Assembly (NCBI GenBank): GCA_022826125.1
Contig: JAJDVM010000231.1
Coordinates: 1 to 64,000, forward strand
Origin: Defluviicoccus sp.
Lineage (GTDB): Bacteria > Pseudomonadota > Alphaproteobacteria > MPNO01
Direction of reading: 5' to 3'
DNA: 64,000 nucleotides
Under the pieces are notes generated by a model. The model made no database searches, was not told the origin of the DNA, and saw nothing but the letters and a program-made list of their open reading frames with translations. Positions 38,344 through 39,926 of the stretch are shown here, piece by piece. The position numbers and the translations under genes are program-made. Position 1 is the first letter of the stretch; every line of letters begins with the position of its first letter.

Positions 38344-38453
38344 GACTTCGTCGGGCTCCCCAAGCTGCCAACCTGTTGTGCGGGGAACCTAGCGGTTCGT
38401 ACGGGTCGCCGTCAAAATATCGGGGAATACGTGCTATGCACCGCCGCCGGCAA

Positions 38454-38624
38454 TTATGCGCCGCTGCCGATAGGGCGACCGATGTGGGCTTCGACCAACT
38501 CCCTGAGGGCTTCCAGGCCTCCTGCCGCTCTCTCGATGGCCGATCTCAGCTTCCGGTCGTGCCCCGGGCGGAATTTCCGGCCCGGGGTCACCGCCTCACC
38601 GCAGCCGCACAAGCACGGTTTCAT
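38454..38624 (-). CDS. 56-residue Cys-rich small protein
   Basis: A short frame from ATG 38624 to TAA 38454 encodes 56 residues beginning MKPCLCGCGE, followed by GRKFRPGHDRKLRSAIERA and a helical tail. The CxCxC cluster (C4, C6, C8) with His22 in the PGHD box looks like a small metal-binding knuckle; peptides of this pattern occur as unnamed mini-proteins in bacteria, but no function is known to me. It lies 69 bp downstream of the PIN gene on the same strand and is probably in its operon. The start region also overlaps the stop of a 26-codon frame that I did not call. Confidence 0.55.
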   Translation of the reverse strand: MKPCLCGCGEAVTPGRKFRPGHDRKLRSAIERAAGGLEALRELVEAHIGRPIGSGA

Positions 38625-38693
38625 TGGTCGATATCCACGTCAGCGTTGCGGGCAGCCTCGGCGAGGCGGTGACGCTGGGGTTCGGTTTTGAGG

Positions 38694-39146
38694 TCATTCA
38701 AGGTCCAACTCCGGCTCCGGTACGCTCGGCTCTTCGATCACCAGCGAGTCGCCCGCCTGTGTGCTCTTGCCTATCAGCGCCCTATCGAAGGTATTGAGCA
38801 CGTCGGCTTTCGCCGCGATCGCTGAGGCCACATGACCGGCGTCCTTCGGGGCAATTCCATGATCCCAGACCAGATCTCGTGCCGATTCGGCAATGCGGCG
38901 CGTTAGGGTGATCGTGTGGATGAACTTCTTGGCAAAGAGGGCTTCGACCTTGGCGCGCCGCTCTTCCGGAAGCGCGTCCTTGGGCCGTAGCATCAGGACT
39001 TCCGCGATGGTGAGAGCGCTGGTGACGATCTCTAATTCGCCGCGCTCGCAGAGGGTCAGGACATCGCCGCACTTATCGGCCTTGTCCGGCTCCTCTTGCA
39101 GCCGGCCGAGAAAACAGTCCGAGTCCCAATACCTACGCTCGACCAT
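38694..39146 (-). CDS. PIN-domain protein (VapC-like toxin candidate)
   Basis: The 150-residue protein has a PIN-nuclease pattern: Asp8 in YWDSDCFLGRL, an acidic residue in SALTIAEVLML, and the pair KDAGHVASAIAAKADVL plus NTFDRAL. PIN toxins cleave RNA with a Mg-bound acidic cluster. ATG 39146 is used because it makes a TGATG overlap with the stop of the 222-residue gene; a TTG one codon earlier is ignored. No classical VapB antitoxin precedes it; the upstream coupled protein may take that role, or this is an RNase with another purpose. Confidence 0.8.
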   Translation of the reverse strand: MVERRYWDSDCFLGRLQEEPDKADKCGDVLTLCERGELEIVTSALTIAEVLMLRPKDALPEERRAKVEALFAKKFIHTITLTRRIAESARDLVWDHGIAPKDAGHVASAIAAKADVLNTFDRALIGKSTQAGDSLVIEEPSVPEPELDLE

Positions 39147-39814
39147 CAATCCGTAGAGAGAAGCCCGCGAAATTCCCCTATGGGTGTCTCGTCGTACGGA
39201 AAGAGCTCGACCTGTTCGGCTCTGATGCTCAGCGGATGGCCCTCCGCGTCATAATGGATCAGGCCATGCGCCGCCACGCGCTTGGTCCACATCTCCTGCA
39301 TTGACGCCACGAGCGCATCGGGGACGGTGCAGCGCACGCCGGTATCCCAAATCGGCTCATAGATCGTGAAGTGCGGCCCGCCCCTGTTGCTCAGGGTGGA
39401 AAGTTCTCCTTCGATGGTTCCGTATTCGTGGAAGGGCTCAGGCGGTTCCGTCTCGACCTCCTGCAACAGGTCGTTGCGGTTGTCTCCTGCCCATAGCTGC
39501 GTGTCCTCCACGGGAAGCCTAGACAATTCCCGGAATCGTCGCCTTACCCTGGGTGGTGGACGCTGGATCATGGCGAGAACGCTTCGTGCGACATCGATCG
39601 CGGTGTCCCGACCGACTTCGGCTCTCAGGACTTGACTGCCTTTCCCGACGGAAACCTCCCATCCGACCGCCCTTGCATCCGATCTCGCCTCCCGCGCGAG
39701 ATCGGCCAAAATGTCGGTGAAGGTGCGCACCGCCCTGAGAAACACTTGGGCCGGCACTTTGTCCGGCCCGAGTTTCAAGATCAATACAGGGCGGACCTCC
39801 TCGCCCTTCGTCAT
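39146..39814 (-). CDS. Unrecognised 222-residue protein coupled to PIN gene
   Basis: I do not recognise a family. The product starts MTKGEEVRPVLILKLGPDKVP, has a helical stretch AQVFLRAVRTFTDILADLAREA, a glycine-containing strand VSVGKGSQVLRAEVG, and a C-terminal half rich in strands (FTIYEPIWDTGVRCTVPD, LSIRAEQVELFPY). There is no signal peptide or membrane segment. Its stop overlaps the PIN start, so the two are made together. Possible roles are antitoxin-like partner or RNA-guide/adaptor for the PIN nuclease; neither is proven. ATG 39814 is preceded by GAGGACC. Confidence 0.65.
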   Translation of the reverse strand: MTKGEEVRPVLILKLGPDKVPAQVFLRAVRTFTDILADLAREARSDARAVGWEVSVGKGSQVLRAEVGRDTAIDVARSVLAMIQRPPPRVRRRFRELSRLPVEDTQLWAGDNRNDLLQEVETEPPEPFHEYGTIEGELSTLSNRGGPHFTIYEPIWDTGVRCTVPDALVASMQEMWTKRVAAHGLIHYDAEGHPLSIRAEQVELFPYDETPIGEFRGLLSTD

Positions 39815-39926
39815 CGCGTGGTCCTCCAGCCTACGCGACGATGCTACGCCAGAGAGGAGACCCGGTAAAGCAAGACTCAGCCAAGGGTTGCCGGCGAAAG
39901 GGTGGGCGCCGGCGTCCGGGGCCCGT

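Follow-up and report, generated by a model that had tools for sequence, protein, structure and literature searches.

The window, a stretch of 64,000 nucleotides from a contig of Defluviicoccus sp. (JAJDVM010000231.1), carries three small genes, which encode a 222-aa protein, a PIN nuclease and a 56-aa C-x-C-x-C protein, together with the remnants of a transposase gene and of a small ORF (Table 1).

Table 1. Positions of the genes, remnants and insertion in the window
Feature	Coordinates	Strand	Remarks
222-aa protein gene	39146..39814	-	putative antitoxin; ferredoxin-like domain and OB-fold (model)
PIN nuclease gene	38694..39146	-	VapC-like putative RNase toxin; D8, E49, D102, D121 present
56-aa C-x-C-x-C protein gene	38454..38624	-	within insertion, outside 222-PIN module
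Transposase 3'-end relic (IS1595-type)	39844..39873	-	reads LLYRVSSLA-stop
Truncated 'DEDE' small ORF remnant	38621..38704	-	NDLKTEPQRHRLAEAARNADVDIDQ-stop; weak profile match
Whole insertion	38421..39923	n/a	against empty site in congeners (blastn and junction reading, G001, G002, G003)

The 222-aa gene, whose ATG is preceded by a GGAGG ribosome-binding site, stops with the TGA at 39148-39146, and the ATG of the PIN gene starts from 39146, one base being shared (TGATG). All three genes are on the minus strand. The coordinates and the overlap agree with those given in a first-pass annotation of this DNA, which had described the genes as a compact insertion between housekeeping and catabolic genes. 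The description as an insertion is borne out by the congeners. The insertion point lies just after a DUF3553 gene; this gene and one for a SpoU-type methylase form one flank, genes for NADH/formate dehydrogenase subunits form the other, and three congeners have the same flanks without the inserted genes. In one of them (G001) the flanks match the window at 90% on either side, through position 38420 and from 39924 onwards, and since they abut there with only about 19 bases between them, the intervening segment of the window is an insertion of 1503 bp. Two congeners (G003 and G004) have copies of the 222-PIN pair of their own elsewhere in the genome, with about 50% identity in the 222 protein and 59-71% in PIN, and the pair has therefore probably arrived more than once. 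Comparison with relatives that keep the gene order shows purifying selection on both genes, dN/dS being about 0.09-0.2 where dS is measurable. The open reading frames are not products of chance, because the relatives of 222 and PIN keep their order at low dN/dS and the 56-aa protein has relatives, 54-64% identical, on three alphaproteobacterial plasmids (Gemmobacter, Martelella and Roseinatronobacter).

The PIN protein matches the Pfam PIN family at 5e-10, and the four catalytic acids listed in Table 1 are invariant in 12 PIN sequences. A search of PDB sequences with this protein gave no match, and its predicted structure (pLDDT 87) matches mainly VapC entries in the PDB (VapC20, VapBC11, VapBC15, FitAB), so that the protein may be described as a VapC-like putative RNase toxin. 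The 222-aa protein had been called unrecognised, and it is indeed without a family match in Pfam, NCBIfam and PADLOC (none above noise in the last); family searches found no RHH, AbrB, HTH or Phd domain in it and no known VapB type. Its model, which is of moderate confidence (pLDDT 79, pTM 0.52), has an N-terminal alpha/beta, ferredoxin-like domain and a C-terminal beta-beta-beta-alpha-beta-beta barrel of the OB-fold type. The nearest solved structures to this model are mostly OB-folds (SSB, RecG, the LysRS anticodon domain, ExoVII), none of them below 1e-3. A PDB sequence match of the 222 protein to a designed bundle at 0.006 was set aside. The members of the 222 family are 222-290 aa long, which is larger than usual for antitoxins.

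The origin of the pair can be read from intact relatives. Alphaproteobacteria contain intact elements of about 2.7 kb in which the gene order is transposase, 222, PIN and a small ORF whose acidic product has a (D/E)DD(E) motif, here called the DEDE ORF, which sits between PIN and the second repeat. Terminal inverted repeats containing ACTTGACAAACC bound the elements L010/L018 (a Defluviicoccus MAG), L011 and L022 (Aliiroseovarius), each flanked by an 8-base target duplication, which is TACGGTTA in L018/L010, AAATATTT in L011, where 2699 bp lie between the matched repeat motifs, and CAAAACTG in L022; a target duplication of 8 bp is the rule in the IS1595 family (PMC8101967). The transposases of L010 and L011 match PF12762 (DDE_Tnp_IS1595) at 1e-35 and 2e-32 and the zinc ribbon PF12760 at 6e-10 and 7e-12, and that of L018 matches the NCBIfam IS1595 model (NF033547) at 2e-55. 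With their DDE domain, N-terminal zinc ribbon, inverted repeats and 8-bp duplications, these relatives are IS1595-family transposons. The same four genes are found in L030 and on the Methylobacterium plasmid pMOC1, where the RefSeq annotation independently names a transposase and, for the PIN protein, a "VapC family toxin".

By inspection, the left terminal repeat holds a TTGACA followed about 17 bases on by -10-like sequences (L018 2940, L011 7792 on the minus strand, L022 2482). Since these sequences are promoter-like, the whole operon could be transcribed from the end of the element, and the promoter of the operon is probably located within the terminal repeat. Two plasmid-borne elements were also observed in which the slot of the pair is differently filled. 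On Pseudosulfitobacter plasmid P1 (L065 3443-5289), matching terminal repeats enclose a transposase (65.6% identical) and a DEDE ORF, the 222-PIN pair being absent. On Mesorhizobium plasmid pB1-1-8 (L067 3451-6834), an element of the same type with terminal repeats has other cargo in the slot, namely an unannotated 162-aa ORF which is unrelated to 222-PIN and has no Pfam match, after which come the DEDE ORF and more small ORFs. Because the DEDE ORF is kept by both of these elements, it looks like the constant companion of the transposase, and 222-PIN like optional cargo.

The copy in the window is a relic of such an element. Directly before the 222 gene lie what were the last codons of the transposase, their counterpart in the intact element L010 being LLYRDSSMG; about 27 of 34 bases there agree with the 3' end of the intact L010 gene, and the transposase ends at the same position in L008, L009, L010, L011 and L013. 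The DEDE remnant has the expected position after PIN, and its profile match is weak, with E 2e-4 when this one sequence was searched. Because only the last transposase codons are left and no terminal repeat is found in the window at up to 4 mismatches, the insertion is a decayed IS1595-family (ISXO2-like) transposon in which the 222-PIN cargo is intact. This status of the pair as transposon cargo was missed by the first-pass annotation.

Decay of the transposase beside an intact 222 gene is also found elsewhere: 8-64 codons of it are left in the window, L016, L017 (22 codons), L019 (54), L021 and L044 (59). PIN is intact in all of these except L021 (genome G312), where a nonsense codon is present and the locus runs across a contig break. 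Between L016 and L019, neither of which has a working transposase, 222 shows a dN/dS of 0.17 and PIN one of 0.09 at dS of 1.1-1.4, values of which some of the underlying history may predate the decay of the transposase. In viral contigs from IMG/VR (L044 2040-3480 and L045 3780-5193), a decayed IS1595 element with 222 and PIN both intact lies between phage-like replication genes, so that the pair can ride into phages. Searches of plasmids and phages with the window 222 protein gave no match, nor did a search of plasmids with that of L011, and one plasmid was matched by that of L022.

The linkage of the two genes is tight. Among 385 genomes of the class, 222 occurs in 6 and close relatives of PIN in 6, with both in 5 (hypergeometric 5e-10). 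The first-pass annotation had named a wide occurrence of the 222-residue gene without PIN as evidence that would speak against its proposal; what is found is a rare gene, next to which a PIN gene or PIN remnant stands in nearly all loci, with one clear exception (G091). The pair as a whole is rare and patchy, being present in about 1-2% of genomes in the class and the phylum. The two genes overlap by 1-4 bases in the window, L016-L019, L011, L014 and L044.

Loss within the pair is one-sided. The 222 gene is intact while PIN is broken or missing in five genomes (a TAG codon in G350, a TGA codon in G312, a frameshift in G648, a truncation in G018 and absence in G091). The counts are small, and some of the frameshifts may be errors of assembly, since several of the genomes are MAGs. 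A 222 protein served as the query by which most loci were discovered, and loci with PIN alone are therefore under-sampled except in the searches that started from PIN; these yielded 13 genomes, 9 with an intact PIN and 4 with a broken one. A 222-family gene is directly upstream in 9/9 of the genomes with intact PIN, including very divergent partners in G011 and in G483, which lies outside the class, and no intact PIN without 222 was seen among the 13. The only locus without 222 (G210) has a PIN gene with a frameshift and a stop. Because PIN breaks beside an intact 222 and is never seen intact alone, the losses follow the pattern expected of a toxin that needs its antidote.

The reading that we regard as probable is that the two genes form a transposon-borne toxin-antitoxin pair, in which 222 restrains a VapC-like PIN RNase and which outlives the transposase. 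The 222 protein, encoded upstream and translationally coupled, would bind the PIN RNase and restrain it; if 222 fell short or the pair were lost, free PIN would cleave cellular RNA and growth would stop. Such action would stabilize the element, and addiction of this kind would account for a pair that outlives its transposase. The earlier suggestion of a new module resembling toxin-antitoxin systems is thus well supported for the pair, given the linkage, the overlap, the one-sided loss and a PIN active site that is complete. It falls for the proposed third member, the 56-aa protein, since the third cargo gene of the intact transposons is a different small ORF, the DEDE ORF.

A further-reaching proposal, to which we give a smaller though appreciable chance, is that 222 represents a new antitoxin class, in which an OB-fold protein of the nucleic-acid-binding type would control a VapC-like RNase, spread by way of the IS1595 cargo slot and possibly free the RNase on meeting foreign nucleic acid from a phage or a rival transposon.

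It is rather unlikely that the pair serves immunity against phages or between elements, in which PIN would be freed for abortive infection once 222 sensed a phage protein or foreign nucleic acid. Among viral models four pass 1e-3 against the 222 model, and the best of these phage proteins is a DUF6575 protein (5.8e-7). DUF6575 is named among new anti-phage defence domains and is reported from a defence system of E. coli that was identified by experiment (PMC9519451), and the pair is present in the element relic within the viral contig L044. Against this, the match, which covers a two-domain protein, has a low TM (0.32) and is not accompanied by any sequence match: the DUF6575 profile found none of seven 222-family members at E up to 10, a DUF6575 search of the genome itself and of controls gave no match, and PADLOC returned nothing above noise. 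The likeness, one of predicted structure, is taken as a lead only.

We consider it similarly unlikely that the pair is an accessory of transposition, in which 222 and PIN would process the RNA of the transposon or a transposition intermediate and so tune transposase expression. Such a role would suit genes that share an operon with the transposase behind the promoter-like box of the left terminal repeat, but many loci keep the pair without a transposase, and because the Pseudosulfitobacter and Mesorhizobium elements do without the pair or carry other cargo, it looks dispensable for transposition. Very improbable is a domesticated host pair for RNA processing, a ribonuclease whose specificity subunit has an OB-fold: PIN with an OB-fold protein as RNA-binding subunit would plausibly make an RNase, and the pair is kept under purifying selection, but it is rare and patchy, PIN has been lost repeatedly, and the pair lies at different sites in congeners and is absent from two of them.

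The first-pass reading of a three-gene module, with the 56-aa protein as functional partner, is strongly disfavoured. That gene is co-directional with the pair, and its start falls within the stop codon of the truncated DEDE ORF, but it accompanies the pair only in the window: none of the other 222-PIN loci examined contains it, nor do 40 related genomes, and its relatives lie in unrelated neighbourhoods. The protein gave only weak matches to PHROG families of unknown function, and no match in a viral scan or a PDB sequence search. By its sequence relatives it is a real small gene and a bystander to the 222-PIN module. On Martelella plasmid pMM259 (L062 3001-5294), an unannotated relative of it lies directly before a DUF262 gene.

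The preferred reading, a transposon-borne toxin-antitoxin pair, has parallels in known systems. With type II VapBC systems the pair shares the PIN RNase fold, the four acidic residues, a partner gene that is upstream and overlapping, and an association with mobile DNA; it differs in that VapBC antitoxins are small DNA-binding proteins of the RHH, AbrB, HTH or Phd type, whereas the partner here is a protein of 222-290 aa with a predicted ferredoxin-like domain and OB-fold, which by this predicted fold would lie outside every known VapB class. Toxin-antitoxin pairs, including ones with PIN and PIN_3 toxins, are known as cargo of Tn3-family transposons (PMC7157771). Those elements likewise carry a pair with a PIN toxin, but their antitoxins are RHH_6, Phd, AbrB, HTH, ParD and MNT (PMC7157771) and the carrier here belongs to another family; membership among them would call for a Tn3 transposase and resolvase, and the transposase of the intact relatives is of the IS1595 family instead. 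With IS1595-family insertion sequences the carrier shares the DDE_Tnp_IS1595 transposase with its zinc ribbon, the 8-bp duplications and the optional cargo. To judge from the title of Siguier et al. 2009 (via PMC5704250), this family includes cargo-carrying members, tISCpe8 and MTnSag1 being examples; no report of 222-PIN cargo in IS1595 elements was found in the papers searched, and Siguier et al. 2009 or ISfinder may list such cargo.

If the preferred reading is correct, the range of transposon-borne toxin-antitoxin cargo would extend from the Tn3 family to the small elements of the IS1595 family, and PIN toxins would have a new type of partner. The decayed copies would then also provide a natural record for testing addiction, in which the pair persists as the transposase and the ends decay, and in which any loss of one member of the pair falls on the toxin.
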